Source: Rubripirellula sp. (GTDB taxonomy: Bacteria > Planctomycetota > Planctomycetia > Pirellulales > Pirellulaceae). From it: 64,000 nucleotides of DNA. Both the position numbers and the translations under genes were made by a program. The number at the start of each line of letters is the position of its first letter. Positions within the stretch are counted from its first letter, which is position 1. Location: positions 346,523-410,522 of the forward strand of contig JAAXJB010000003.1 of the NCBI GenBank assembly GCA_012270065.1, in the 5' to 3' direction. Of the stretch, positions 9,904-24,213 are shown piece after piece. Under the pieces are notes generated by a model, which saw only the letters and a program-made list of their open reading frames with translations, made no database searches and was not told the DNA's origin.

Positions 9904-11601
9904 CTAAAATGCGGTTAACCAACGCACTTGAAATGGCAACAGCTGAATCCCATCTTCCGGCTGAATTCGCTCCAAGGCCAATTCATCGTGTACAAGACTC
10001 TCATCAATCAAACCGGATTGCACGACGCGCGGACTGGCGGTCAAATTGGCAACCACCGCCACCTGTTCACCGTCGTCAGCCGTCCTGACAAATCCCAGCA
10101 AGCCATCTCCTGGAAGTTGCAAGACCCTCATACTCGCCTTGGGATGGAAAGCCACTTGTTTGATCCTCACTGAGAGCAAGTGCTGGTACCCGTCAAAAAC
10201 GCAACGCTGCAACCCATCCGGCTTTGCAAGGGCCTCCTCCAGACTCTGCCTCTCGTACTTATGACGATTGATGCGACGGTTCTGCCCTGTTGCCTGCACA
10301 GCGGCTGTATCATTCGGGGAACCGACCAGACTGTGAAAATAGACAGCGGGGATACCTGGCAATGCCAACATGATTGCCTGTGTGGCAAGAAAGCACCTCG
10401 CATGCTCCTCAGGATCGACTTTTCTTGCATCTGCAACTGCCTCAAGAAATGTAATATTCAACTCATAGGGACTGTCCGTACCGTCTGACTTGCGACGCGT
10501 ACTGACTCGACCACCATGCGATCTGACAATCTCGGCCAGCTTTTCGACTCTTTGCGGTGACACGATTCCTTCCAGTGGACGAACACCGACCCCATCATGG
10601 GAAGCAGTAAAGTTGAAAAAGGTAGTCAAATCACTCGGCGGTTCTATTGTCGAAAGCCAATCCCGCAAGACAGTTGTGTCACAGTTGTGAATCGCATCCA
10701 GCAGCAGGGGTGGCAAACTGAACTGGTAGACCATGTGTGCCTCATCATCGCCATCGCCGAAATAGCTGACATTCTCTTCGTGTGGTACGTTTGTCTCCGT
10801 CAGCACCAAAGTCCCGGGAACCACCGCATCAAGCACGCGCCGCATCAACTTCACCGCCGCGTGAGTTTGCGGAAGGTGAATGCAATCGGTTCCAATTTCT
10901 TTCCAGAGAAATGCAATTGCATCAAGCCGAATGATTCGTGCACCGCGACGCGCATACTCGACAAGCGTTTCCAGCATCAGGAGCATGACCCGAGGATTCG
11001 CGTAGTTCAAATCCACCTGATCAGCACTGAATGTTGTCCAGATATGTCGTGTACCAGTCGCTGTTTCGAAGCTTGTCAATAATGGCAAGCTTCTCGGCCG
11101 CACAACCTCTGACAGATCCACATCAGGATTCTGGTCAATGAAAAAGTTATCGAACGCGGCATCACCTCGAAGGTAAGCCTGAAACCACTCATGCTTTTGT
11201 GATGCGTGGTTCAGCACCAGATCAAACATCAAATCAAAATCTCCACCCAGCTCCGCAATGTCCTCCCATGTGCCTGAGTCCGGGTCCACAGCCAGATAAT
11301 CAACGACAGAAAAACCGTCATCGCTCGTAAAAGGACAAAAAGGGAGCAGGTGGACACAGCGAATCAGATTCTCGAGTCCATGATCCAGGAGGAATCGGCG
11401 CTGTGCCTGAAGTGGAGATGATCCAGTATCACGAACTTGATCAGCATAGGTGATCAGAACAACATCACGTTCGGACCAGAGTTCACATTGTTCTTCCGAC
11501 GTATGCCCCGGCGTCATTTGTTCCAATCCCTGAATCAACTCATCAGGCAAATCGCCATAGATCTGCCGTATCAATTCAGCTGTCTTTGAATCAATCTTCA
11601 T
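9904..11601 (-). CDS. GH13_18 sugar phosphorylase, glucosylglycerate phosphorylase-like
   Basis: A 565-residue alpha-glucoside phosphorylase of the sucrose phosphorylase subfamily. It reversibly cleaves a glucoside with phosphate to glucose 1-phosphate. The (beta/alpha)8 motifs are intact: SDDGFSVVDY, nucleophile Asp227 in IIRLDAIAFLWKE, acid/base Glu269 in LTETNVPHEENV, and Asp336 in TASHDGVG. Length and segments such as GDDEAHMVYQFSLPP recall the E. coli YcjM/glucosylglycerate phosphorylase branch rather than the shorter (about 500-residue) sucrose phosphorylases. This is from memory, not an alignment. It is the last gene of a four-gene minus-strand cluster with two glycosyltransferases and a HAD protein. 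Glucosylglycerate or a related solute is therefore the most likely substrate; sucrose and glucosylglycerol remain possible. Confidence 0.8.
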   Translation of the reverse strand: MKIDSKTAELIRQIYGDLPDELIQGLEQMTPGHTSEEQCELWSERDVVLITYADQVRDTGSSPLQAQRRFLLDHGLENLIRCVHLLPFCPFTSDDGFSVVDYLAVDPDSGTWEDIAELGGDFDLMFDLVLNHASQKHEWFQAYLRGDAAFDNFFIDQNPDVDLSEVVRPRSLPLLTSFETATGTRHIWTTFSADQVDLNYANPRVMLLMLETLVEYARRGARIIRLDAIAFLWKEIGTDCIHLPQTHAAVKLMRRVLDAVVPGTLVLTETNVPHEENVSYFGDGDDEAHMVYQFSLPPLLLDAIHNCDTTVLRDWLSTIEPPSDLTTFFNFTASHDGVGVRPLEGIVSPQRVEKLAEIVRSHGGRVSTRRKSDGTDSPYELNITFLEAVADARKVDPEEHARCFLATQAIMLALPGIPAVYFHSLVGSPNDTAAVQATGQNRRINRHKYERQSLEEALAKPDGLQRCVFDGYQHLLSVRIKQVAFHPKASMRVLQLPGDGLLGFVRTADDGEQVAVVANLTASPRVVQSGLIDESLVHDELALERIQPEDGIQLLPFQVRWLTAF

Positions 11602-11772
11602 TCAACCGGGCCACACAAGGAGGAAGTTTCTGTTACTGCAGACTGACAAACACAGTCAATCCAAACAGAACGATCCACATCATCTCTGACCTACTGATGA
11701 TCCCACCACAGGATCCACATCAGACATACTGCAGATGTACTGTATCTCTACTGCATCAAGAGTTCTGGCACT

Positions 11773-13038
11773 TTACAGGTTTTCTTGCCCCGTAAAATTG
11801 GTAACGAGAGCTCTCAACTTCCGCCTTAATACGCTGTAACTGAAGAACGCTTTGCCTATTTCGTAATTAAAATCTACCATCTCTTCACGATATTCGGGAT
11901 CGTCAATGATGCGTTGGACTTTATTGACAACATCTTTTGTCAAGTAACCATCCATGGCGATTACTTTCGCACCCTTAGGTTCAATATCTGCCACAAAAAT
12001 CGAATACCGATTCACGAGTACTGGCTTGCGGAAATAAAAGGCTTCCAGGAGAGCATTGCCAAAACCCTCGTAAATACTCGGGTAGGTGATGAAGTCGGCC
12101 TGTGAATAGGCATCTGCCAACGTGTATATCCGGTTGCCATCCTCTGTCAAACCACGACGGTCACCGACCTGATGATCACAAAGTCGCAGATCAACACCGT
12201 GTGCATCAGCCAATTCACGCAACACACTCAGGTACTCATTACCTTCGTCTCCGCTGGCGTGTGAAATCACCAGTTTGCATCGATCATTGTTCAATGCGGA
12301 GACAAGAGCGATAGCGTGTTCGATCCCTTTACGTGGAACTACACGAGTTGGCTGCAAGAACAGGATATCATCGTCGTCGAGCCCGATGTCGGACCGAAAT
12401 GTTCTTGCATAGTCATCAACGGGTTCAGGTTCATTCTCGAAATCCAGTACATTGGGAACAAGAATCGATGAGACACCGCGTCGATGGGCAAGATCTTCCT
12501 GCGCAAACGAGTTGATGGTCACATTCTGGATCTGGGGCAGTGCAGGAGGAAAAGACATCCAAAGCAAATCGGTGACAGCGGAAACACTGAATCGATCACG
12601 CTCCCAGTAAAAGTCATGATGATGGGCGATCGTTGGAAATCCGGTCTCGGCGATAAAGTGGGTCAAAGCCACTCCAAGTGGAATGTTCATCGGAATGCAC
12701 AGCGCATTCTGCACGATCAACAAATCCAGGTTGTACCGCCGTGTAAACTCATATAGCGTGCCCTTCAGATAATCTGCCAGCGCATAGATCCGCTGTGTTA
12801 CGTCAGGTGTTCGGGTGCGCGTACCAAAAGCCCGGCGATTGATCCACTCGATGTCCGGATGCCCGAAGTAGGCGTGTGGAACGACCATCGACGTCTCTTC
12901 ATCGCGGTCACTCAAGCCGGAATACCAGTGACTTACATGCCGATGATCCCAGAGCACCTGAGCCCATTTCGCACTCTCAAGTGAAACACCATCTGTACCT
13001 GAAAACCGCGTACCAACAAACCCAATCTGGACACCCAT
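11773..13038 (-). CDS. GT4-type glycosyltransferase
   Basis: A 421-residue GT-B fold transferase. The N-terminal Rossmann half begins [20 protein letters not shown], the glycine-rich acceptor-side loop. The donor half carries [17 protein letters not shown] and the E-x7-E motif in [12 protein letters not shown], so a retaining NDP-sugar transferase is expected. There is no signal peptide or membrane segment, which implies a cytosolic acceptor such as a small glycoside. It sits 171 bases before the phosphorylase and 98 bases after the HAD gene on the same strand. Given the neighbours it may extend or make a glucosylglycerate-type solute, for example by mannosyl transfer as in mannosylglucosylglycerate synthesis known in Rhodopirellula. 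That assignment is inference only. Confidence 0.75.
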
Positions 13039-13136
13039 GGCGCGAATGAAACCTGTTCTGAAAAGCTATGTTGTACCTGCAAGACCTGATGATTTTTAAC
13101 GCCACAGGTCACACACGCGAATCGTCAGCAATGCTT

Positions 13137-14048
13137 TTAGCTGATGGGTAGACACTCTGGCAACTGCATCAAGCTGGTAAGTACAACATCCGGAACCAGT
13201 CCCCGGCACCTGGAATCATCTTCCCGTGGCCGACAACTCCGTGAATCCCCCGCGAACCAAGCCGTTCGCAACCCTGCCTCCGATGCAGCCCAGACGTCAT
13301 TAAGCATGTCATTTCCCACATAAACGGCCTCGTTGGGAAGAATACCTTGATTCAACAACCCCCGCCGCAGAACTTCGAACAACCTCGGCCCCGGTTTTGC
13401 CTGTCGATAGCGGTTGGAAAACACACATAAATCAAGACTGAAACCAGCGTCTTTCAGCCCATTGCAGTCCATGAGATTATTCATCAGAGGAAGAGTAAAA
13501 ATCTGGGCGTTGCTGACAATACCTAGCGTGAAACCAGACTGTTTCAAGTGTTGCAGCAGTTGCACAGATCCTGGCATCGGCCAGGTTGGATTCGCCAACG
13601 CTTCGTATCTGGCTGCCAGCCTCACAACCATTTCGATTTCTGACGGCTCATTCGTCCATCCTGACTGCGTTAACACGTCCCGCCAGACTTCAACGATGTC
13701 TACCTCTGGTTTCACACAGTCGGTTGTTACCCGATCCGCGTTGATCCTCTGAATACTACGTTGCAAGTCTGCTGCTTTAGGGGTGGAGTCCAACCGTTCA
13801 AGCAAACCAGATTCTTCCAGACTTTGACGCACCAAAGAGTCGCGCCCACCGGTATCAGCCGATCCAACATCACCGCTTCCACTGATGAGCAAGGTCCCAT
13901 AGATATCGAACACCACGGCTCTGACACCAGTTAGCTGCCGGAGTTTGGGCTTGATGGCAGTTTCTAAAGGCTGCATTTCCTCGCGATACTGCGTAACATT
14001 TTCAAGCCACGATTCGACACGCATTTTCACAGCAACTCCGTACGGCAT
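13137..14048 (-). CDS. HAD-superfamily hydrolase with DxY motif I
   Basis: A HAD hydrolase with a helical cap domain. Motif I is VVFDIYGTLL (Asp48, Tyr50), motif II lies in GIVSNAQ, the motif III Lys is in YRQAKPGPRLF, and motif IV is YVGNDMLNDVWAA. Most HAD phosphatases have Asp at the +2 position of motif I; Tyr there is typical of L-2-haloacid dehalogenase-like members. The gene starts inside the end of the upstream glycosyltransferase gene (22-base overlap). Using the in-frame ATG at 14024 instead would leave 2 bases between stop and start. Either way translation is probably coupled. The cluster would predict a phosphatase for a phosphorylated glycoside, but the motif makes that uncertain. 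Confidence 0.75.
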   Translation of the reverse strand: MPYGVAVKMRVESWLENVTQYREEMQPLETAIKPKLRQLTGVRAVVFDIYGTLLISGSGDVGSADTGGRDSLVRQSLEESGLLERLDSTPKAADLQRSIQRINADRVTTDCVKPEVDIVEVWRDVLTQSGWTNEPSEIEMVVRLAARYEALANPTWPMPGSVQLLQHLKQSGFTLGIVSNAQIFTLPLMNNLMDCNGLKDAGFSLDLCVFSNRYRQAKPGPRLFEVLRRGLLNQGILPNEAVYVGNDMLNDVWAASEAGLRTAWFAGDSRSCRPREDDSRCRGLVPDVVLTSLMQLPECLPIS

Positions 14049-15604
14049 GGAAAGAAAGTTCGAAACGCACTAATCAAGTCGATACCGCTTGGCATCGTGG
14101 TGTTCGACTCACCTGCCGCAGGATCATCGAGAACACTTTCATTTTCACAAGCAATGTTTTCCAAGCGAATCAACTTCTGGTAAGCGTGAAGCAATGATTC
14201 TCCAATCCTAGATGCACCATATACTTCTCGAACCTTTCTGGCATTGGACACCAGCACGGACTCAGAAAATCCCCGGTCCAAACGCGAGATAAGTGGTTTT
14301 GACAGTTCCATCGCGGCTCTTTCAAATCCATTGTCCGCTGCCATGCGTTTGAGCACCTCAACCTGCCGAGCAGGGGTAAGTCTGGCGAAGTCAATGGTGC
14401 CATCCCTTTCATCCAAGGATTCGGGGATTACCGGCTGAAAATCTTTCGGCAATGCCTTCCACGCTCTCTTCTGGGCAGCCAGAGTTTCCTGTTCGCATTC
14501 TGTGATCCATGCCTGATTCCCGGGAATCGGAATCGATTCATAAAAACTTTCCAAATCGAGTCCACCACACTCAAAGTCATCCGTTACCGTTGGCAAACGT
14601 CGTGCGATCACACCACGGTTCAACAACCAGGGCTCAAGGAATGCCATCCCAAATCCTTCGGCAACACTGGTGGACACTACATAATCCGCCGCCAATACAT
14701 TCTGCAAAAAGGAAAGACCAGGTTTTTCTCCCGCATCAAAGACTGTCCTCGGTGAAACCTCAACAGCCACACGCCTCCAACGCTCATACGAACGCAACTC
14801 CACCGCTGTTGCCGGCTTCAATGTCAGGCCCAGATAACGATTTTCACCTGCCCAACGTCCCAGCAACAACAACTCACCAACATTTTTCCTGCGTATCCCA
14901 CGAACCGGATAAAGCCCCCAACGCGCATCCTGAGGAAGCTTCATCACATCAATGACAGCCGCTCTGGCATCCTCACTGGAAAGAAGATCTCCTTGCGGCA
15001 CAGCAACACTGTTGGGAATACAGTGCAACTGTTCACGATGAACACCAAGCTTTTCCAACACTCCTGCATCAGCTGTCGTCAGAGTGGCATACTGGATGTT
15101 ATCGTGAATTGGATACAAATACCGGTCGATCTCTTTTCTATCTGTTGCGTTCGTTGCAGAGATCAAACGCTGGTAGTTTTCCGGGCGATTGTCCTCAGCA
15201 AAATCATGAACCTGAAGCAGAACTCGCCATCCATGAACTGCAAGTGAATGAAGCACTCCCGGAAGAGCAGTGTTCTTTCCGAGACTGTGGTTGTGGCAAT
15301 GCAACAGCACATTTTCAGCATGCAACCCGGATTCGTTGAATCGAACCTCCAACTCATGCATCATTCTTTGCTGTCGCGTAGCCAAATCGATGACGGTTGA
15401 GTCATCGTCATCATAGTCAAATCCCTCCAGACCAACCCACTCTGTGTTCTTCAGAATTTCTTCTGAAAGCCCACTGATACGTTGTCCCGATGCTAGCACG
15501 ATGCGTTCAAATTGCTGTGTCTGCAATAGTGCCCGCACATGGTTTTCGACCACTTGCGTGACCCCGCCACGTTCATAATGACAGTGAAGAATCACGACGA
15601 TCAC
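14027..15604 (-). CDS. GT-B glycosyltransferase, group 1-like
   Basis: A 525-residue predicted cytosolic glycosyltransferase and the first gene of the four-gene cluster. The N-terminus MIVVILHCHYERGGVTQVVE has the G-G-V acceptor loop of GT4 enzymes. The donor half contains LYPVRGIRRKNVGELLLLG (conserved R-x4-K) and the E-x7-E motif in AEGFGMAFLEPW. It carries about 100 residues beyond the usual GT4 C-terminus, starting around residue 400; I do not recognise this tail. The stop codon is followed directly by the HAD gene. The donor and acceptor are unknown. Sharing an operon with a glucosylglycerate phosphorylase-like enzyme points to synthesis of a small glycoside rather than of polysaccharide. 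Confidence 0.72.
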   Translation of the reverse strand: MIVVILHCHYERGGVTQVVENHVRALLQTQQFERIVLASGQRISGLSEEILKNTEWVGLEGFDYDDDDSTVIDLATRQQRMMHELEVRFNESGLHAENVLLHCHNHSLGKNTALPGVLHSLAVHGWRVLLQVHDFAEDNRPENYQRLISATNATDRKEIDRYLYPIHDNIQYATLTTADAGVLEKLGVHREQLHCIPNSVAVPQGDLLSSEDARAAVIDVMKLPQDARWGLYPVRGIRRKNVGELLLLGRWAGENRYLGLTLKPATAVELRSYERWRRVAVEVSPRTVFDAGEKPGLSFLQNVLAADYVVSTSVAEGFGMAFLEPWLLNRGVIARRLPTVTDDFECGGLDLESFYESIPIPGNQAWITECEQETLAAQKRAWKALPKDFQPVIPESLDERDGTIDFARLTPARQVEVLKRMAADNGFERAAMELSKPLISRLDRGFSESVLVSNARKVREVYGASRIGESLLHAYQKLIRLENIACENESVLDDPAAGESNTTMPSGIDLISAFRTFFPCRTELL

Positions 15605-15919
15605 AAGTACACCATTTCAAAAAGCAGCGCTAGATGGAGCGTTTGCCTGCCAAAGGCTCGCGGTCTCAAAGACTACTTGTTAATCCAATTTCGGCAACCC
15701 GTCACATTTATTTACCGACGACACACGCGACATGCAAGCCTGCGAAATATGCATGTTGACTTCAACACATCCAATTCATGCACCTTGCTATACCAATCTG
15801 CGATTACATTCGAAACGCGCACAAGGAACCGTAAGTTACCGCCATTTCGAAATTCCGCTCACCACGGTGAGACCGGGGAGTGCCAACGAATGGGCACTGG
15901 TGAACAGTGCATTTCTCGA
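15605..15919. other. Intergenic region with two short inverted repeats
   Basis: These 315 bases lie between the end of the M50 operon and the start of the glycosyltransferase cluster, both leftward. No plausible gene is present. Two hairpin-capable repeats sit just past the M50 stop: GCACTG/CAGTGC (15894-15910) and CTCACC/GGTGAG (15858-15871). They lack a following T-run, so they may be weak or factor-dependent termination signals. The rest should contain the promoter of the glycosyltransferase cluster, but I cannot point to it. Confidence 0.5.
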
Positions 15920-18076
15920 TCATGCAAAGGCATCAAGCACAAAACGAGCGATCCGATGGAAAATCGATGCGTTTTCAACACTGACCCTTGCCTTTCCCGT
16001 CAAGCGAACCGGAAGTGGAGATGCGGTGGGTTCCACAAGAACGCGAACCTCATAAAACGGCTTGGTATCAAACATGGCACCAGAGGCCTCGAGCATGCCA
16101 TTGCGTTGCAACGCTGGAGGGATGTCCTTTGTGGGCGAAACAGAGATTTCCGAGACTCTTCCACGCACCTCTCCCTCGGCATGATCATCCAGCAGCAGGT
16201 GTACCCGCTGACCTTGCCTGATCAACTCGACATCCTGTTGCGGAACAAAGAGAACAGCCTCCCGTCCAATTGGATCACCCACCAGACACACGGCCGTCCC
16301 TTCCTCAAACCATGCACCTACATTGCCATCATCCAGTGGAGTCCCGAACCAGTACTCCGGCTCACGTTCATCCTCGACAGGCTTCATCCGCTTGTCGGCA
16401 GCAAAAACTTTCCCATCACGAGGTGCGTTCAACACGAGTTGACCGGCCAACAATTCCCTCAATTGTTTTTCTTTCCTTGCTTCTTTCAAAGAACGTTCAA
16501 TGACTGGAATCTGCAATCCAGCCTCACGATTCGCAAGGCGTCTCCGCTTCAATCCACTCAACTGGACTTCGAGTAAATCAACATGTCCACGAGCCTGTGC
16601 AAGCTCCAGCTCAACAGATTCATTCACGAGGGTCGCTATCATCTGCCCTGCTTCTACGACACTTCCATTATCTACCGATTTCACCAATCTTCCTCCATTG
16701 GTGACAAAAACCGTTTTCGCATCTGCCGGTTGAATCATCATGTGTGCCGTTGTTGTCCTGGGCAAGGGCACCAAACCAACGAGGATGACACCTGCAGTCA
16801 GCAAACTCATAAAGATCACTGGTCTGCGAATGCTGTAATGGCGATACCCGGCGTGACTTTTTGGTGGCATCATCACGGTTCGAACAACAGAAAGAAAGAA
16901 ACAACCCATGGCCAACAGAACCAACACTCCAACGAGATCACCCATCTCATGCAGCTCGGCATATTGATAGAAGATCAACATGATCAACGCGAAGATTACT
17001 ATCCGGTAGGTGCCACTCAAAATGCCATATCCCGCCAACAGCACATTCCGGATTGAAAAACCCGAATCCATGATCGTTGGCTTTGACCAGAGAAAACACT
17101 GAAACCACTCTCTCAAAATCCCTTTCGCCTCAGCCGAAAGGTTGGGGATTCCCGTCAGGTCAGAGAGCATGTAATACCCATCGTAACGCAATAACGGATT
17201 GCCATTGAACAAGATGGTGGTTACGGAACATACCAGCATGACGGTAACGCAAATGTCCCGGATTGGACCATCAAGCGTGAACGCCCAGATCAAAGTGGCA
17301 ACGGAGGCCAATGTCAATTCCGCCAACATCCCCGCAGCCGAAATCAGAATCCGCTGCCAACGCCGCGGCAGCATCCAGGCGTCAGAAACATCGCAATAGA
17401 GGCACGGCACGCCGACGAGAAACATCAGACCGATTTCGCGGCACTCACCACCAAACCGTATGCAAGCGATCGCATGTGCCAATTCATGCATCACCTTCGT
17501 GATGGACAATACCCCAACCAAAATCAACAATCCTGTTCCTGCTTGCATCCCTGCCGCGGCACCGGCGAGATGGATGCTCAAGTTCCCAAAATTGACAACC
17601 ACGACCACCAAGGCAACAAGCATCAGAAAAACCGCCAGCAGGAATGCTATTGGCGACAAGATAAAACCGAGATGATGGGATATTGAATTGAGGACCCGGT
17701 CGGGATTCACACCGGGAACCCGAATGGCGAGAGGATTCTTCCACCAGGGACGATGTGTGTCTGAACGGTTCATTGCGTTGGGTACACCACACCCATCCAC
17801 GAGCAACAGACCTTTACGCCGTGCGTCAGCGAGGAAGCGGATGATTGAATCAACCGACAGGAACTGCGGGGCAAATCGCCTGTTACACTCCAAGGCAATC
17901 TGGGCCACAGTGCGTTTCCCATCCGCCAGAACAAGAATCTCTCTTTCCTGGTCATTGAAATACGAAAACGCGCGTGAAAGTGGGTCTTTGAAAACCCAAA
18001 CGCGTTCACTGCCCATCCAAACCATTTTCTGGATCAGATCAGGCCGCAACATCAATCCGGAATTCTTGCTGTTCAC
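15920..18076 (-). CDS. PqqD-like / M50 zinc metallopeptidase / HlyD fusion protein
   Basis: A 718-residue polytopic membrane protein. Residues about 8-95 resemble a PqqD-like winged-helix domain (FSYFNDQEREILVLADGKRTVAQIA), the fold used as a RiPP recognition element. Membrane segments follow at about 130-165, with HELAH at 197-201 (zinc ligands H197 and H201, catalytic E198). The third ligand is expected at Asp299 in NPLLRYDGYYML, as in M50 site-2 proteases. Further membrane segments reach about 435, then a HlyD/biotinyl-lipoyl barrel with coiled coil completes the protein. The start is GTG 18076-18074 overlapping the upstream TGA, so it is translationally coupled to the adaptor gene. The likely role is peptide processing or export through an adaptor/TolC conduit; the substrate is unknown. 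Confidence 0.82.
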   Translation of the reverse strand: MNSKNSGLMLRPDLIQKMVWMGSERVWVFKDPLSRAFSYFNDQEREILVLADGKRTVAQIALECNRRFAPQFLSVDSIIRFLADARRKGLLLVDGCGVPNAMNRSDTHRPWWKNPLAIRVPGVNPDRVLNSISHHLGFILSPIAFLLAVFLMLVALVVVVVNFGNLSIHLAGAAAGMQAGTGLLILVGVLSITKVMHELAHAIACIRFGGECREIGLMFLVGVPCLYCDVSDAWMLPRRWQRILISAAGMLAELTLASVATLIWAFTLDGPIRDICVTVMLVCSVTTILFNGNPLLRYDGYYMLSDLTGIPNLSAEAKGILREWFQCFLWSKPTIMDSGFSIRNVLLAGYGILSGTYRIVIFALIMLIFYQYAELHEMGDLVGVLVLLAMGCFFLSVVRTVMMPPKSHAGYRHYSIRRPVIFMSLLTAGVILVGLVPLPRTTTAHMMIQPADAKTVFVTNGGRLVKSVDNGSVVEAGQMIATLVNESVELELAQARGHVDLLEVQLSGLKRRRLANREAGLQIPVIERSLKEARKEKQLRELLAGQLVLNAPRDGKVFAADKRMKPVEDEREPEYWFGTPLDDGNVGAWFEEGTAVCLVGDPIGREAVLFVPQQDVELIRQGQRVHLLLDDHAEGEVRGRVSEISVSPTKDIPPALQRNGMLEASGAMFDTKPFYEVRVLVEPTASPLPVRLTGKARVSVENASIFHRIARFVLDAFA

Positions 18077-19176
18077 TCGCTCACGCTTAAACTTGATCGC
18101 ATCCCAGGCAAGACATCGAGACTTGAATTGTCAAACTCGACCCAAAAACGTATTTCGCCACTGACTGGCTCCAACTCGCGGCTGATGAATTTCACAATGC
18201 CATCACGTTCAACAGTACTATCCTGCGTACGCTGAATTTCCAACTGGACCTTTTGCCCTACACTTAGGCTGTCCAGTTGATCGGCTGAGATGAATCCCTC
18301 TGCCCTCAGGCGATTCAAACGGATCACCCGGATCACTGGCTCACCAGCTTTCACCCAGTCTCCCAACTTCCGGTATCGTTCCACCACCACACCATCAATG
18401 GGTGACCGGATGACCTGCAAGGATGACGCCAATTCGGCAAGCTTCAATTGGTGTTGCTGCAATTCTGCCTGCAACTCCTGTACACGCTGCTCAACTTTTG
18501 CTTGAGCCAATTCAAGGGTATACCGCTCAACTCCGAGCCGGTGACTGTTCGCAGCTTCCGCTTCAGCCTCTGCCTGCAACCCACTGATCACACGCTCGAA
18601 TTCGGCTTGTTTGGTTTCGAGTACAGTGCGTTCAAAACTCAATCGCAGATTATCAATTTCGGATTCTGACACACTGTCAACAAACTGCCGACGCGCCTCC
18701 GTAGCACGCTTGAGTTCATTTTCGGCAACCAATTCCGCTTTCTTTGACGCCTGCACGCTGACATCATTCTCAGCCTTACGATCTGCGATCCGTTTTTTGA
18801 ATTGATGTTCTTTGGCAAGCTGTTCTTCCTGCGCGAGTTTTTTTTCTGCAAGTTCTGCTGCCAAACCGCTTCTTGCACTCTCATTCGCTATTTCAAGGCG
18901 AGTGCGAGCCAGATTTTCTTCCAGCTTCAGCTTCCGATCATCCAATCTTGCAAGTTCATCACCTGCACTTACCGACTTTCCTTCACTCACCGCAATTGCC
19001 GCCAACGCTCCGTCTTGTGATGCGGGGACATCAACCGAATCAATCAAGACAACTTGCATGTCATCTACACGAACAATTTCAACAGCAAATGCATTCCTTG
19101 CTGTCCATGGCATGCACAGCAGCATCAGCAGCATCAGTCGAAACTTGACAACATTGTCCAACATTGACTTTCTCAT
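18073..19176 (-). CDS. HlyD/RND-type periplasmic adaptor
   Basis: A 367-residue membrane-fusion-protein-type adaptor. A signal sequence or anchor (LMLLMLLCMPWTARNAFA) comes first, then half of a lipoyl-like domain (GALAAIAVSEGKSVSAGDEL). A long alpha-helical hairpin of about 170 residues, rich in Lys, Glu and Ala, follows. The second lipoyl half is VIRSPIDGVVVERYRKLGDWVKAGEPV, and a beta-barrel ends the protein. It lacks its own inner-membrane pump; no ABC or RND transporter gene is adjacent. It lies 18 bases after the 671-codon adaptor gene and overlaps the M50 gene by 4 bases, so the three form one operon feeding the divergent TolC. Confidence 0.82.
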   Translation of the reverse strand: MRKSMLDNVVKFRLMLLMLLCMPWTARNAFAVEIVRVDDMQVVLIDSVDVPASQDGALAAIAVSEGKSVSAGDELARLDDRKLKLEENLARTRLEIANESARSGLAAELAEKKLAQEEQLAKEHQFKKRIADRKAENDVSVQASKKAELVAENELKRATEARRQFVDSVSESEIDNLRLSFERTVLETKQAEFERVISGLQAEAEAEAANSHRLGVERYTLELAQAKVEQRVQELQAELQQHQLKLAELASSLQVIRSPIDGVVVERYRKLGDWVKAGEPVIRVIRLNRLRAEGFISADQLDSLSVGQKVQLEIQRTQDSTVERDGIVKFISRELEPVSGEIRFWVEFDNSSLDVLPGMRSSLSVSE

Positions 19177-19194
19177 GAAAAATTCTTCATTGCA

Positions 19195-21135
19195 TCAAAA
19201 CCACGGATTACTTCGATACCATTGAATCAAGCCCCGAAACAGCACAAAACCGAGTGGATACTTTCCACATTCAACCTGAGCGACAACAGTAGCTCCATTC
19301 CGCAATTCAACAGCCCGACTGACATTGACAGGGAATGTAGCCGTGACGATCGATTGACCATCCAAGCCCAGATTCGCAACACCAGCGATTTCAGCAATCT
19401 CTCCGTAATAGTCCTGAGTAGGATCAGAACGCAAGCGAAAAGAACAGCGGCATGGTGACTGCCGCTGCTGCTTCATCACGTAGTTGATGTTCTCCTCTGG
19501 AAGATCCAATTCAATCGTCCATCCAGCTGATTCAGAAATCACATCAAGCAGATACTGACCATGGCTAACCGGCCTGGATTCAAGTGACTGTCTCAAATCC
19601 CAACGGTCAACGATTCCATTCATGGGACTCTCGATGGTCAGGCCTGACTGTTGCTTGTCGAGTATCCGCAACTGTTCATGGAGGCCTTCGATTTCTTTCC
19701 GCAGGACCAACTCTTCGGATGCAATTTCTGCTTCACGCTGGCGGTTAGAAACTGCACTACTGCTTGAACGCATGGCAGCAAGGGAAACCAAACGAGTTTC
19801 AGCTGTCGCGAGTTCTCCTTCGACCGTTCGACGCTGCAAATCCAACGTCGGGCTACGCATCTGAACCAGCAAACTACCTGCCTTCACCGCATCTCCGTTT
19901 GACACAGAGATATCTGATACGATTCCTTCTGACGGTGCAAAAAGCCGGTGCTGCTCGGCGGCAACCACACGCCCCGATACAGACAAACGCAATTCCATTG
20001 GCACAAATAGCAGTGCAGCGGCCAAAATGAACAAGGCTGCAACTGACAACAGGAGTTTTTTCCGATTCTCAGGACTGAATAGCAGCGACGCAAGAAATCC
20101 CCAACCTGCATCGGTTCGTTTCAGAGCGTTAACAACAGCATCCTCAAGAGGCGAAAACAGCGTTTGCAGCTTTCGCGGAATCTGTTCATCCTCGCTACCG
20201 GGAGCCTGAAAGCTCTCCACCACAATCGCCGCTGCAGGCTGTTGGCCGTGCCGCGAACCCATCAACCGAATGTGGATCTCGCGAAACCCTGAATGATCAC
20301 AATAACGGGACAATTGACTTGAAATACCCTCGTCAAGCTCCGCAGCACCACCGACCTGGTAATGAAAGGCATCCGATTCCGATAGCACGGTCTCAACCAA
20401 TTGCTCCATCAATCGAACCTGCCTCGCACGACGGACGACTTTTTGGCAGGCAGAAGTTGTCACGACTCGAAAACGATTCCCTCGAGACTGCAACAAACTA
20501 ACACGATCAAGTTGACATGCACTGGCAAGACAGGTCGCTATTGATGAAAACGAATCGCTCAAACCGATACCCTGGTTCAAGTCGCGAATCAACTCATCCC
20601 GGTCAGTCCGCTTGCTCACCCGTTTCTGCAGATTCCCGAGTTCCTCCCGCAATACGACAGGCATGGCAAGATCAAGCAGAACCTCTGCCAACTCGCTGAT
20701 CGGTGCACGCAAACCGAATTCCGGGGCTTCCTCGAAAGAGAAATCAAGCTGCAAATGATGTCCTGGCTGCAGACTCTGACTGGCATTCAAACGCGAGCCA
20801 AATTCACCATCTGACCATTTGCAACGGGATGCAAAATCAATGGGATCATCATTGCCTTGTTCACCAGGATCGCCCGGATTGGAATCACCACCCGCTTCGC
20901 CATTATCCACTGATCCATGCAACAGGATTCCGCTTCGGGCCAACAGAACGAATTCATCACCCTGAACAATCGAGAGTGTGACAGCTGCGGCGCCTGTCGT
21001 CAGTCTTAAGCCCTCAACCAGATCATCGAAGAAGGATGGCGCATCTGGCCGGTTACGAGCGGCTGATTCCACTCGCTCGATCAGGGCTTCCGCATCTCTC
21101 CAGATGCCTTCGTTACGTGGCGTCGGCGTTGGCAT
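19195..21135 (-). CDS. HlyD-family adaptor with large N-terminal sensor-like region
   Basis: About 646 residues from ATG 21135; an upstream in-frame start at 21210 would add 25 residues, so the start is uncertain. The first 350 residues are soluble and resemble two degenerate GAF-like domains, with alternating strands and helices (AVTLSIVQGDEFVLLARSG; CQLDRVSLLQSRGNRFRVV). One membrane segment follows (KLLLSVAALFILAAALLFV). The rest is a lipoyl/HlyD domain split by a coiled coil (HRLFAPSEGIVSDISVSNGD to LTIESPMNGIVDRW) and a beta domain. The topology puts the sensor-like part in the cytosol and the adaptor in the periplasm. This suggests export or envelope assembly gated by a cytosolic signal. 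It is the first gene of the operon, facing the TolC gene across about 200 bases. Confidence 0.75.
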   Translation of the reverse strand: MPTPTPRNEGIWRDAEALIERVESAARNRPDAPSFFDDLVEGLRLTTGAAAVTLSIVQGDEFVLLARSGILLHGSVDNGEAGGDSNPGDPGEQGNDDPIDFASRCKWSDGEFGSRLNASQSLQPGHHLQLDFSFEEAPEFGLRAPISELAEVLLDLAMPVVLREELGNLQKRVSKRTDRDELIRDLNQGIGLSDSFSSIATCLASACQLDRVSLLQSRGNRFRVVTTSACQKVVRRARQVRLMEQLVETVLSESDAFHYQVGGAAELDEGISSQLSRYCDHSGFREIHIRLMGSRHGQQPAAAIVVESFQAPGSEDEQIPRKLQTLFSPLEDAVVNALKRTDAGWGFLASLLFSPENRKKLLLSVAALFILAAALLFVPMELRLSVSGRVVAAEQHRLFAPSEGIVSDISVSNGDAVKAGSLLVQMRSPTLDLQRRTVEGELATAETRLVSLAAMRSSSSAVSNRQREAEIASEELVLRKEIEGLHEQLRILDKQQSGLTIESPMNGIVDRWDLRQSLESRPVSHGQYLLDVISESAGWTIELDLPEENINYVMKQQRQSPCRCSFRLRSDPTQDYYGEIAEIAGVANLGLDGQSIVTATFPVNVSRAVELRNGATVVAQVECGKYPLGFVLFRGLIQWYRSNPWF

Positions 21136-21344
21136 GAAAAACTGGTGACAAATTTGCAAGTGGAAAGGCAACCATCGGGAAAATGATCCACTGGTTGCGA
21201 GCTGCTTCAACGTGGAACACGGCCTGTTTCACAAGGTTGTTAAGAAGTTACCGCATTTCCATCTGTTTTGATTGGACTGTCTGCAACGATTGGTACGAAA
21301 AAATCGATTAGTGGCGTCCCTACGGGCTGCGACAGCAAACACCG

Positions 21345-23225
21345 ATGCGCACCTCTCATAGCAAAGCATGGCTTGAAATCTCGGTGAACCAAATCCCAAC
21401 CCTCCTGAAACTGCGAAAAAAGTGGCAAACCTCCTTTGCCTTACTTGTGGCTTCAGTTGCGCTCTCATCTTTCCCCGGCTGCCGCAGCTACCGCAGCTTA
21501 CCGGAAACGATCGGGAATCGGACGGATCAAATCGACCAATTGATGCGTTGTGTGGATGCCGGTGCCCCGGCTGAGCAGATCACCGAACTTCCCGAGGCCC
21601 CCTACAGCCTCAAGCGGCCAGAGGAGCTCGATGCAGCGACCTACCGGGACATGACGCTTGATGAAGCCATTCGCCTTGCCATTGAAAATGGCGAAGTTCT
21701 GAGGAAACTTGGCGGAATGATTCTGACTGACCCGGAGCGGATCTACACGGAACAGACTTTGCCTCTGCAAGTGACGGATCCTCAGACCGGGATGGAGGCG
21801 GCTCTGTCTGCTTTTGATGCGAATCTCTACGCCTTTGGGAAATGGCAAAACAACGACCGCAGATACAACAACCAGTTCATCAGTGGCGGTGCCAACGCAT
21901 TCAAGCAGGACACCCATGATTACGTTCTGCAACTGTCCAAATATACGGCTACTGGTGCACAACTCGCACTTCGCAGCGTGACCGACTATGACGCCAATAA
22001 CGCCACTGGCAACATAACGGCCAGTGCATGGCAAACCCAGTTCCAGGCCGAGATGCGACAACCTTTGATGCAAGGCGGCGGATTGACCTTCAACCGAATC
22101 GCCGGACCGGGTGCAGTTCCCGGCAATTACAACGGTGTGTTAATTGCCAAAGTCAATAACGATCTGACTGCTGCCGAATTTCGCCAACAATTACGTGACT
22201 ACATCAGTGATGTTATCACCGCCTACTGGGATCTTTACTTTGCCTATCGCTCGCTGGACTCCAAACGTGATGCGTTGAAGCGCAGCCAAGCGACATGGCA
22301 GAGTTTCGATGCTCTCAAAAACAACAATCGCCGAACTGGCACCGACGAGGCAATGGCCAGAGAGCAGTACTACAGATTCAAGTCCGAAGTCAACGACGCC
22401 ATATCCGGCCCCCTCGGTGTTCAGACAATGGAACGGAATCTTCGGTTACTGATCGGCATTCAAATCACAGATGGCATCCTTCTCCGCCCAGCAGACGAAC
22501 CGAATGAAGCCCCACTACTGTTTGACTGGGATTCGATCGCAATTGAAGCCGTGCAACTGCGAAGCGAACTCCAGCAGACGCGTCTTAAAATCAAGAGAAG
22601 CCAGATGGAAGTTCTGGCAGCAAAGAACTTCCTGATGCCAGAGCTTGACCTGGTCTCGACTTATCGAATCCGTGGACTGGGAAAACAACTTGCCGGAGAA
22701 AACAGTGCTTTCCGCGAACTGGGTTCAGGTAACTACCAGGAATACGAAGCCAGTGTCGAATTGCGTATGCCGGTAGGATTCCGACAAGCTCATGCTGCCG
22801 TCCGCAACGCCCAGTTGCAGGTACAACGACAAAGAACACTGCTGCGTGAGCAGGAAAGAAGAATTCTCCGAGACCTGACCAACGACGTGGTGGAGTGTGA
22901 TCGATCCTACGTGCAGATGCAAACAAACATGAATCGTTACTTGGCGGCGACTGATGCACTCAAGGGTATGGAAACTAATCGTGGCAATGGGTTGCCTATC
23001 AGTCTGGAACAGTTGCTTGACGCACAACGCCGTGCGAGTGAAGCACAAACCAAGTATTACCTCTCACTGTCACAGTATGCGATTTCGACAAAGAACGTAC
23101 AGTACCAGCAGGGTACTCTACTCAATGCGATCCGCCTGATGGTGATTGACGAGCAACCCGAACCTGTGTCGCTAAAAGACATCATGACAGACGCCGATTC
23201 ATCCATGACGGCTTCGAATCCATGA
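21345..23225 (+). CDS. TolC-family outer-membrane efflux lipoprotein
   Basis: A 626-residue outer-membrane factor. A hydrophobic stretch ends in a lipobox-like SFPGC, so it is probably lipidated. The N-terminal region before it is long (about 45 residues), and a GTG at 21384 could be the true start. Two TolC halves are seen: TLDEAIRLAIENGEVLRKL through DVITAYWDLYFAYRSLDSK, and the second from residue about 390 (IAIEAVQLRSELQQTRLKIKR) ending in a long helix with SLEQLLDAQRRASEAQTKYY. It is divergently transcribed from the HlyD/M50 operon, so it very likely supplies the outer-membrane channel of that system. Confidence 0.85.
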   Translation: MRTSHSKAWLEISVNQIPTLLKLRKKWQTSFALLVASVALSSFPGCRSYRSLPETIGNRTDQIDQLMRCVDAGAPAEQITELPEAPYSLKRPEELDAATYRDMTLDEAIRLAIENGEVLRKLGGMILTDPERIYTEQTLPLQVTDPQTGMEAALSAFDANLYAFGKWQNNDRRYNNQFISGGANAFKQDTHDYVLQLSKYTATGAQLALRSVTDYDANNATGNITASAWQTQFQAEMRQPLMQGGGLTFNRIAGPGAVPGNYNGVLIAKVNNDLTAAEFRQQLRDYISDVITAYWDLYFAYRSLDSKRDALKRSQATWQSFDALKNNNRRTGTDEAMAREQYYRFKSEVNDAISGPLGVQTMERNLRLLIGIQITDGILLRPADEPNEAPLLFDWDSIAIEAVQLRSELQQTRLKIKRSQMEVLAAKNFLMPELDLVSTYRIRGLGKQLAGENSAFRELGSGNYQEYEASVELRMPVGFRQAHAAVRNAQLQVQRQRTLLREQERRILRDLTNDVVECDRSYVQMQTNMNRYLAATDALKGMETNRGNGLPISLEQLLDAQRRASEAQTKYYLSLSQYAISTKNVQYQQGTLLNAIRLMVIDEQPEPVSLKDIMTDADSSMTASNP

Positions 23226-23450
23226 GGTGACTTTAACGAAAGAGTGACTGCCAGTGGAGTTCGCTGATTGAATGCATTGGAACGCCACGGGTTCTCGGGG
23301 GAACACCAGAAACTGACAAGCAGGAGAGTGTTTCACCCGACCATTCTTCGGCTAGATTCATCGTTTTCTGATGCCATGATCAAGTCACTTGCCTGGCGTC
23401 TAAACTGAACCATTCCAATCGCTCGCAATCACGGTCATTTTGAGAAGTCC

Positions 23451-24152
23451 ATGACACCCGAAATCCTCTTCCAGCGATGTCAGGATCTTATCGGTTCAGA
23501 AGCTGAAGAAGTTGAACAGTTGGACGGCGACTCGCTGATTGGTTTTTTTCAGTCATTCCGGCCGGACGGGGCGGCGGTGAACGGCCTTTTTGACGGCATC
23601 TCCTGCGCCACAGACTTACACCATCGCTTGCAGAACCTTTACACGGCCGCAGGTGATGATCGTCGCCCCCAAGGTGGTCGTGATGCCTACTTTGTCATCC
23701 GCAAACCTGAACCACTTGATCCCGCTTTGGCAGAGGAACTGGCTTGTCGTTGGCTGGAAGGAATCTGTGAACTTGCTGAGTCGGTGAGCGAGCCACTGCT
23801 TGGCCAGATATTGCAGCCGACACCCAAGGTGCGAGTTCTTGAAGGCATACCGCCGAAGCACCCGAAGAACGAGTCAGAAAAATCTCAGCTGCTGATTGCA
23901 ATCCAGAAAAACTCGGCTGAACTTGTTGAGAAGATCGATGCAGGACCCTTGGTTCCTCTATTACGGCCTGCATACTATTTCATCGCTTGCGATGCCATGC
24001 TCCGAGACTACCTGATGTGGCCGTTTTATGCTGAGGAGACTGGGCTTACTGACCCGCTGGAGGCCTACTTCGAGTTATGGCGGCACGGTGTGAAATACCG
24101 GATCTTCGGGGAAACTCAAATTGATTTGTACCTTCCCTGGCAATTGGACTGA
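23451..24152 (+). CDS. Conserved-looking protein of unknown function
   Basis: A 233-residue soluble acidic protein that I do not recognise. It has no signal peptide, membrane segment or cofactor motif. Composition and base usage match the neighbours and the reading frame is clean, so it is very probably a real gene. Residues 160-233 are rich in aromatic residues (PLLRPAYYFIACDAMLRDYLMWPFY), suggesting a folded helical domain. It sits alone between the TolC and sulfatase genes, 62 bases before the latter, with no evident partner. Confidence 0.65.
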   Translation: MTPEILFQRCQDLIGSEAEEVEQLDGDSLIGFFQSFRPDGAAVNGLFDGISCATDLHHRLQNLYTAAGDDRRPQGGRDAYFVIRKPEPLDPALAEELACRWLEGICELAESVSEPLLGQILQPTPKVRVLEGIPPKHPKNESEKSQLLIAIQKNSAELVEKIDAGPLVPLLRPAYYFIACDAMLRDYLMWPFYAEETGLTDPLEAYFELWRHGVKYRIFGETQIDLYLPWQLD

Positions 24153-24213
24153 TCGGTGATGCTAAACTTGGGAGTTCACATCCATCGGTCTTCTTTACAA
24201 TCCAGAGCATTCG

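Follow-up and report, generated by a model that had tools for sequence, protein, structure and literature searches.

A 64,000-nucleotide stretch of a Rubripirellula sp. genome (assembly GCA_012270065.1, contig JAAXJB010000003.1, positions 346,523 to 410,522 of the forward strand; the whole stretch is called the window below) contains an operon in which a putative intramembrane protease is combined with periplasmic adaptors of the HlyD family, next to a divergent gene for a TolC-type channel. Its central gene encodes, in a single chain, a domain resembling the recognition elements (RREs) of ribosomally synthesised and post-translationally modified peptides (RiPPs), an M50-type core and a HlyD-type adaptor. 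The question raised by this locus is what such a set of proteins exports. Homologues of the fusion co-occur across Planctomycetota with giant proteins that carry an N-terminal LExRxLL motif, and genes for such giants directly adjoin related operons on proteobacterial plasmids. The operon is probably a tripartite exporter without an ABC transporter, serving giant surface proteins with an N-terminal LExRxLL(S/D)A leader.

Domains of the operon and the missing pump

The features of the operon are, in window coordinates:

15920..18076, minus strand: RRE-M50-HlyD fusion, 718 aa, GTG start (open reading frame (ORF) call, Pfam, NCBIfam, alignment, AlphaFold2 model)
17792..18061, minus strand: predicted RRE/PqqD-like domain of the fusion, residues 6-95 (VIA-align; NCBIfam PqqD below cut-off)
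17474..17488, minus strand: zinc-binding HELAH of the fusion, residues 197-201 (H, E and H invariant in 140/140 homologues)
17180..17182, minus strand: Asp299 of the fusion, presumed third zinc ligand (invariant in 140/140 homologues)
15935..16834, minus strand: MacA/HlyD-type periplasmic adaptor part of the fusion, residues 415-714 (Z 15.7, root-mean-square deviation (rmsd) 8.5 to MacA 9qgy_G)
18073..19176, minus strand: second adaptor, HlyD family, 367 aa (ORF call, Pfam)
19195..21210, minus strand: third adaptor, predicted cytosolic tandem GAF part and HlyD part, 671 aa (ORF call, Pfam, model)
20098..21114, minus strand: predicted tandem GAF part of the third adaptor, residues 33-371 (structural matches to the PDE5A and PDE2A tandem GAF)
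21345..23225, plus strand: TolC-family outer-membrane channel, 626 aa, divergent (OEP E 3.1e-15)

An earlier note, made by a model from the sequence alone, had described this three-part chain, the start of its gene within the preceding HlyD gene and the divergent TolC. ORF calls, Pfam and fold matches bear out this description. The GTG start of the fusion gene overlaps the stop of the 367-aa ORF by four bases, and Pfam recognises M50 in the fusion (30.1 bits against a cut-off of 27.2). HlyD_3 is present in all three adaptor proteins, the fusion included, and the second adaptor also matches HlyD_D23. The ORF of the third adaptor is called from a TTG, with a later ATG possible. The Rfam scan of 15000-24200 gave no match, and promoter and terminator scans stayed near chance level.

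The AlphaFold2 model of the fusion (mean predicted local distance difference test score, pLDDT, 86.7; 36-row alignment) supports an RRE-like fold for its N-terminal domain, as the earlier note had supposed. Residues 6-95 of the model match the lasso-peptide B1 proteins 6jx3_B (Z 11.0, rmsd 2.7, 84 residues aligned), 5v1v_A (Z 10.8) and 5v1u_A (Z 10.5), all leader-binding proteins whose structures were solved with leader peptides. RREs bind RiPP leaders. By sequence, NCBIfam PqqD gives a sub-threshold match (E 1.3e-4) to residues 40-91, and Pfam PqqD does not match the fusion at E up to 1. An RRE profile built from the alignment matches 138 of 140 fusion homologues, and the two misses (L172, L179) are ORFs truncated at the start as called. 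At the other end of the chain, residues 415-714 resemble MacA and further adaptors.

HELAH and Asp299 are invariant in the 36-sequence alignment, and H197, E198, H201 and D299 are complete in all 140 homologues, so that a loss of zinc ligands in most homologues, named in the earlier note as a point that would speak against its reading, is not seen. Since 74 of the 140 are loci fetched with a pattern containing the Asp, the conservation of D299 is partly selected, that of the histidines and the glutamate is not. An HExxH motif with a conserved Asp fits an M50 site-2 protease; this identity rests on sequence because the M50 part is not among the Foldseek/VIA rows shown for the model (HlyD, biotinyl and RRE matches).

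For the third adaptor, a sensor-like cytosolic part had been suggested and is now modelled as a tandem GAF unit (whole model: pLDDT 75, predicted template modelling score 0.39). It resembles the PDE5A and PDE2A tandem GAF with Z 13-14 (rmsd 6.5-9.5) and single GAF domains with Z about 12 (rmsd about 3), and the remainder of the model matches MacA with Z 17. Pfam GAF gives no match on the 671-aa protein.

The earlier note had read these genes as a leader-recognising protease and exporter of processed peptides that works without an ABC or RND pump. No ABC-motif ORF is found in the 64-kb window. In 127 homologous loci (window included), ABC-motif ORFs occur in five, and seven have ORFs of 750-1400 aa with eight or more hydrophobic segments; both counts are upper bounds, the latter for RND pumps. 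An ABC or RND partner, whose consistent presence would by the earlier note have spoken against its reading, was rejected on these counts. With the RRE-like fold and the zinc site, the core of the earlier proposal is supported, whereas its peptide cargo is not: the homologues instead co-occur with, and partly adjoin, genes for LExRxLL giants.

A small-peptide exporter would use its RRE to bind a short precursor, remove the leader with the M50 core and release the product through the adaptors and TolC. The closeness of the predicted fold to leader-bound B1 proteins speaks for this, as does the likeness to the intramembrane proteases of daptide and epipeptide (YydH/LiaK) systems, which likewise pair an RRE with an HExxH membrane protease; the shared part spans residues 40-400 of the fusion (daptide model NF041824, E 2e-45, below cut-off). 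However, the NCBIfam equivalog cut-offs for these two families are missed by far (155.6 of 300 bits and 47.5 of 225), and the fusion differs from them in its additional HlyD adaptor and its giant, multi-domain partners. The two gaps flanking the operon hold no convincing precursor ORF, in agreement with the earlier note; their short ORFs are chance-like in a search confined to these gaps and not exhaustive. Export of a RiPP or other small peptide is thus very improbable.

Giant LExRxLL proteins as candidate substrates

Studholme et al. 2004 put forward the sequence RRLxxExLExRxLLA as an N-terminal signal for export, as cited in the available part of PMC8567305, where eight of the ten longest proteins are stated to carry the signal motif. 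A LEPR-XLL protein of ~8000 aa is mentioned for Vibrio in the available part of PMC10868602. The fusion family is proposed here as the machine for this proposed signal, which is represented by the models LEPR-XLL (NF012209) and Planc_extracel (PF07595); in the parts of open-licence PMC texts that were available, no machine is assigned to it.

Of 148 Planctomycetota genomes surveyed, 43 encode the fusion, 25 have a LEPR-XLL match over the cut-off and eight have a DUF4347 match. Only LEPR-XLL matches over the cut-off were counted because this model is short and matches many control genomes (7/14) at E up to 1. The fusion is present in 24 of the 25 motif genomes (Fisher p 6e-15), and the motif occurs in one of the 105 fusion-less genomes. 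The association is also found outside the window's class (fusion in 16/17 motif genomes vs 11/115 others, p 1.3e-12) and at the family level, where each of the 12 motif families is one of the 20 (of 55) that have the fusion (p 3e-7). A profile search at E up to 1e-20 reaches 62 genomes; the additional 19 were left out of the fusion count, nine of them with a listed row that covers only the adaptor part (about positions 447-655) and ten with best E-values of 4e-22 to 6e-21. PF07595 exceeds its cut-off in five genomes, four of which have the fusion. DUF4347 is accompanied by the fusion in seven of its eight genomes: in six (G000, G144, G004, G027, G069, G092) the DUF4347 giant lies within ~10 kb of a fusion, and in G042 the fusion is located elsewhere in the genome.

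The window's own genome encodes LExRxLL giants and three further fusion paralogues. PF07595 matches it 29 times at E up to 0.1, with 12 matches over the cut-off; there are also one LEPR-XLL match over the cut-off and three DUF4347 matches. On contig C8, a DUF4347 giant with the start LEDRILYSA is divergent from a TolC gene, which is followed by a SecA-like gene, a HlyD gene, a HlyD gene with a GAF-HlyD-like N-terminal extension and an RRE-M50-HlyD gene; a second set of GAF-HlyD, HlyD and RRE-M50-HlyD comes next. The second DUF4347 giant, on contig C37, lies divergently to a 320-aa ORF and a further SecA-like gene, and the 12 kb covered there contain no fusion gene; the third stands alone on contig C63. 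Near the C37 pair of DUF4347 and SecA-like genes, a 536-aa protein of repeated YTV-like motifs is encoded (L012:5217-6827), which we take to resemble the YTV cell-wall proteins of planctomycetes.

Direct adjacency is found in a second phylum. A tblastn search of plasmids with a fusion paralogue gave 75 records, of which 15 hits were opened (H1, H2, H4-H8, H10, H11, H13-H16, H18, H25), 12 of them with gene tables (all except H6, H8 and H14). The proteobacterial fusions contain HExxH and match the RRE profile in 12 of 12 tested. In eight of the 12 annotated loci, a gene of at least 12 kb lies directly ahead of the operon, and in seven of these eight the motif is found at the annotated start. Annotated LEPR-XLL giants precede the operon in Pseudosulfitobacter (38.8 kb, start MEALEPRFLLSADP) and Pontibrevibacter (31.8 kb, start LDPMEPRVLLSADP), a LEPR-XLL giant of 12.1 kb in Thalassospira (start VEPIEPRILLSADP), giants of 26.5 kb in Methylosinus (start FDTLEPRVLLNADV) and 31.6 kb in Mesorhizobium (start FEALEPRLLLSADF), and DUF4347 giants in A. 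brasilense (12.6 kb, start MALEPRFMFDAAG) and on an E. coli plasmid (13.4 kb, DUF4347 E 5.9e-47, start RFALESRQLFDGAA). By gene length, the giant proteins reach about 13,000 aa. In the B510 locus, a giant starting MFDAAG lies 10 kb from the fusion. A giant is present in Pseudohalocynthiibacter, not readable from its start, and none was seen in R. johnstonii, where the start of the record is also that of the stretch. The unannotated Tistrella stretch reads ...QALEPRMMFDAAG within a 1893-aa frame.

The E. coli plasmid locus (L189/L208, NZ_CP081687.1) has the compact order DUF4347 giant, TolC, HlyD, HlyD, RRE-M50-HlyD. Among 5426 complete E. coli genomes, 24 contain a match to this operon, which in 22 of them spans 80% of the query or more; four of the matching places are chromosomal and 21 are on plasmids.

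A small DUF3467 protein is encoded directly upstream of the adaptor genes in five of the 12 annotated plasmid loci (L187:12821-13102, L188:12699-13019, L193:8715-9020, L194:7641-7985, L198:9648-9944), just after the giant gene in four of them and after an unannotated long open frame in the fifth. It is a possible accessory factor.

In planctomycetes, motif ORFs (at least 300 aa, motif within the first 130 residues, fusion ORFs themselves dropped before counting) were found around the fusion in 5/30 class-level, 6/20 phylum-level and 12/74 Asp-pattern-fetched loci. The pooled 23/124 exceed a shuffle expectation of about 3.6. Among 20 control stretches of 20 kb from 11 genomes of the window's class, one contained a motif ORF (0.58 expected over 169 shuffled ORFs). 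The motif ORF lies 0.7-2.4 kb from the fusion in ten loci (L054, L057, L058, L060, L093, L108, L114, L118, L144, L157). Because such an ORF is nearby in a minority of loci, the planctomycete case rests on co-occurrence and on DUF4347; most planctomycete operons stand alone, and any such substrate must therefore be encoded elsewhere. In a 65-row tree, the window copy falls into a clade of 19 rows (SH-aLRT support 99) that also includes L054, L057, L108, L114, L118 and L157, each with an adjoining LExRxLL gene. The window copy would act in trans, on LExRxLL proteins whose genes lie elsewhere in its genome.

A number of observations weigh against giant surface proteins as the cargo. The 64-kb window has neither a LExRxLL gene nor a SecA-like gene, and no LExRxLL gene lies beside its three nearest tree rows (L106, L053, L056). 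The difference between 23/124 loci and 1/20 control stretches is not significant (Fisher p 0.11; the control is small), and a few of the 23 nearby motif ORFs look like chance. Eleven of the 43 fusion genomes have none of the three substrate models over the cut-off, while the fusion-less genomes G087, G094 and G029 have LEPR-XLL, Planc_extracel and DUF4347, respectively, and LEPR-XLL exceeds the cut-off in one of the 14 control genomes. On the plasmids, the 24.4-kb giant directly before the Alisedimentitalea operon lacks the motif at its annotated start, as does a 6.2-kb VCBS gene ahead of the adaptors in A. thermophilum. According to the available part of PMC8567305, T. immobilis has 52 genes with the related motif LxLExLExRxxP. 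A related motif is also reported for Gemmata. Co-occurrence could also result from a shared lifestyle.

The last point is part of another explanation, in which the complex serves small-molecule or glycan efflux, or the protease is a regulatory site-2 protease, and the link to giant genes is a by-product of a surface-attached lifestyle. Adaptors and TolC commonly serve efflux, and the window copy is followed by genes for a 525-aa protein, a HAD hydrolase, a glycosyltransferase and a sucrose-phosphorylase-like protein, an order that recurs in L106, from a related Rhodopirellula. L106 is, however, syntenic with the window throughout, which makes gene order weak evidence, and a glycan link drawn from the flanking genes was rejected as uninformative on this ground. 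Direct adjacency to motif-bearing giants in a second phylum also argues against efflux or regulation, which we consider improbable.

The flanking genes downstream of the fusion are on the same strand (window 9904-15604; the glycosyltransferase is of group 1), and no Pfam match was obtained for the 525-aa protein; they perhaps form a compatible-solute set. On the other side, a 233-aa ORF adjoins TolC (23451-24152), with a sole relative among the compared loci in L106 (59%) and no match in Pfam (E up to 1) or NCBIfam (E up to 0.1). Between L106 and the window, identity is 41-53% for the fusion, the other adaptors and the 525-aa neighbour (window 14027-21210 vs L106:6898-13807), 64% for TolC and 58-91% for the other flanking genes; judged by these identities, the machine evolves faster than the genes surrounding it.

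Short SecA-like proteins and the inner-membrane step

Short SecA-like frames are present in the window's own genome on contigs C8, C37 and C52. The C8 protein has the Pfam domains DEAD, preprotein-binding and P-loop. Its alignment with a 765-residue SecA chain covers residues 41-599 of that chain, and it presumably lacks the wing and the two-helix finger of SecA. Counting open frames up to 740 aa, together with an 880-aa frame beside the fusion of G003, short SecA-like genes are found in at least 31 of the 43 fusion genomes and, among the matches listed, in none of the 105 fusion-less genomes (hand reading; G097, with a 695-aa frame at a contig edge, was left out). In the plasmid loci, six of six candidates annotated as 'prepilin peptidase', 'DEAD/DEAH', 'SecA' or 'hypothetical' are SecA-like by profile; no SecA-like gene is among the annotated neighbours in Thalassospira, A. 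brasilense and the E. coli plasmid. With at least 31 of 43 fusion genomes, such a motor is common, yet not universal.

These data bear on the main rival for the inner-membrane step, in which the giants cross the inner membrane via SecYEG and the complex, instead of being the inner-membrane conduit, only matures them by proteolysis and hands them across the periplasm to TolC. The DUF4347 operons of A. brasilense and the E. coli plasmid, which have no SecA-like gene among their annotated neighbours, are in line with it, as is the partial alignment of the C8 protein with SecA. The leader region is mostly basic ahead of the motif. For 25 of the 27 motif giants, the best hydrophobic 15-mer of this region (Kyte-Doolittle) scores 0.6-1.9; the giants of L058 and L060 exceed 3. 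The signal regions of the window's own TolC and HlyD proteins reach 1.8-1.9. Given this overlap, lower hydrophobicity does not clearly set the leaders apart from real signal regions, and a Sec-type signal is possible for the giants. On the other hand, dedicated short SecA genes track the fusion, and the leader is a conserved motif instead of a plain hydrophobic core. The SecYEG route is thus a serious possibility, although on the whole an unlikely one.

If the operon instead encodes a dedicated conduit, the complex would consist of the inner-membrane RRE-M50-HlyD fusion, the second HlyD adaptor, the GAF-HlyD protein and TolC. The cytosolic RRE domain would bind the leader, as its fold suggests, and the M50 core may cut the leader in or at the membrane, in keeping with its zinc site and its similarity to the daptide and epipeptide proteases. 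The polypeptide would then enter a periplasmic conduit made by the adaptors and leave via TolC, a path suggested by the domains. The energy, the least certain step, may come from the short SecA-like ATPase in genomes that have one, or else from housekeeping Sec or folding outside the cell. The GAF-HlyD subunit may gate the machine in response to a cytosolic signal.

Relation to known systems and implications

In the available part of Kamneva, Poudel and Ward 2015 (PMC4452313), a locus type with M50/HlyD, HlyD and GAF-HlyD genes and SecA_DEAD, and sometimes with OEP, is described from Planctomycetes, Verrucomicrobia, Proteobacteria and others. It contains no ABC transporter; its authors propose that SecA supplies the ATPase activity and that the M50 protein forms the pore. 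The M50 similarity is called rather weak there and the broader biological role completely unknown, and cases with SecA_DEAD unlinked from the locus are noted. The M50/HlyD, HlyD, GAF-HlyD and OEP genes of this type are all present together in the window, without the adjacent SecA gene. A word search of the main text of PMC4452313 for 'PqqD', 'DUF4347', 'LEPR' and 'cadherin' gave no match. To the published description the present analysis adds the predicted RRE domain, the complete zinc site and a candidate substrate class. A connection of LEPR-XLL or DUF4347 with this locus was not found in the open-licence PMC literature searched (bioRxiv was outside its scope).

HlyD-type adaptors and a TolC channel are shared with type I secretion (HlyB-HlyD-TolC). 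In contrast to type I secretion, the window operon has no ABC exporter, its protease is fused to an adaptor, and its proposed signal is N-terminal. We lean somewhat towards a distinct secretion system, present at least in Planctomycetota and Pseudomonadota, in which the RRE would read the LExRxLL leader, the fused M50 protease would remove it and a shortened SecA would drive many variants.

The motif occurs on some of the longest bacterial proteins. Joining the motif of 2004 to the locus of 2015 makes both testable by gene deletions, and compact versions occur in tractable bacteria, namely Azospirillum brasilense Sp7 and E. coli carrying the plasmids. If the proposal is true, the export signal of planctomycetes would gain its missing machine. 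An RRE, a domain known from small-peptide biosynthesis, would then act as a receptor for secretion, and an export conduit would include a site-2 protease.

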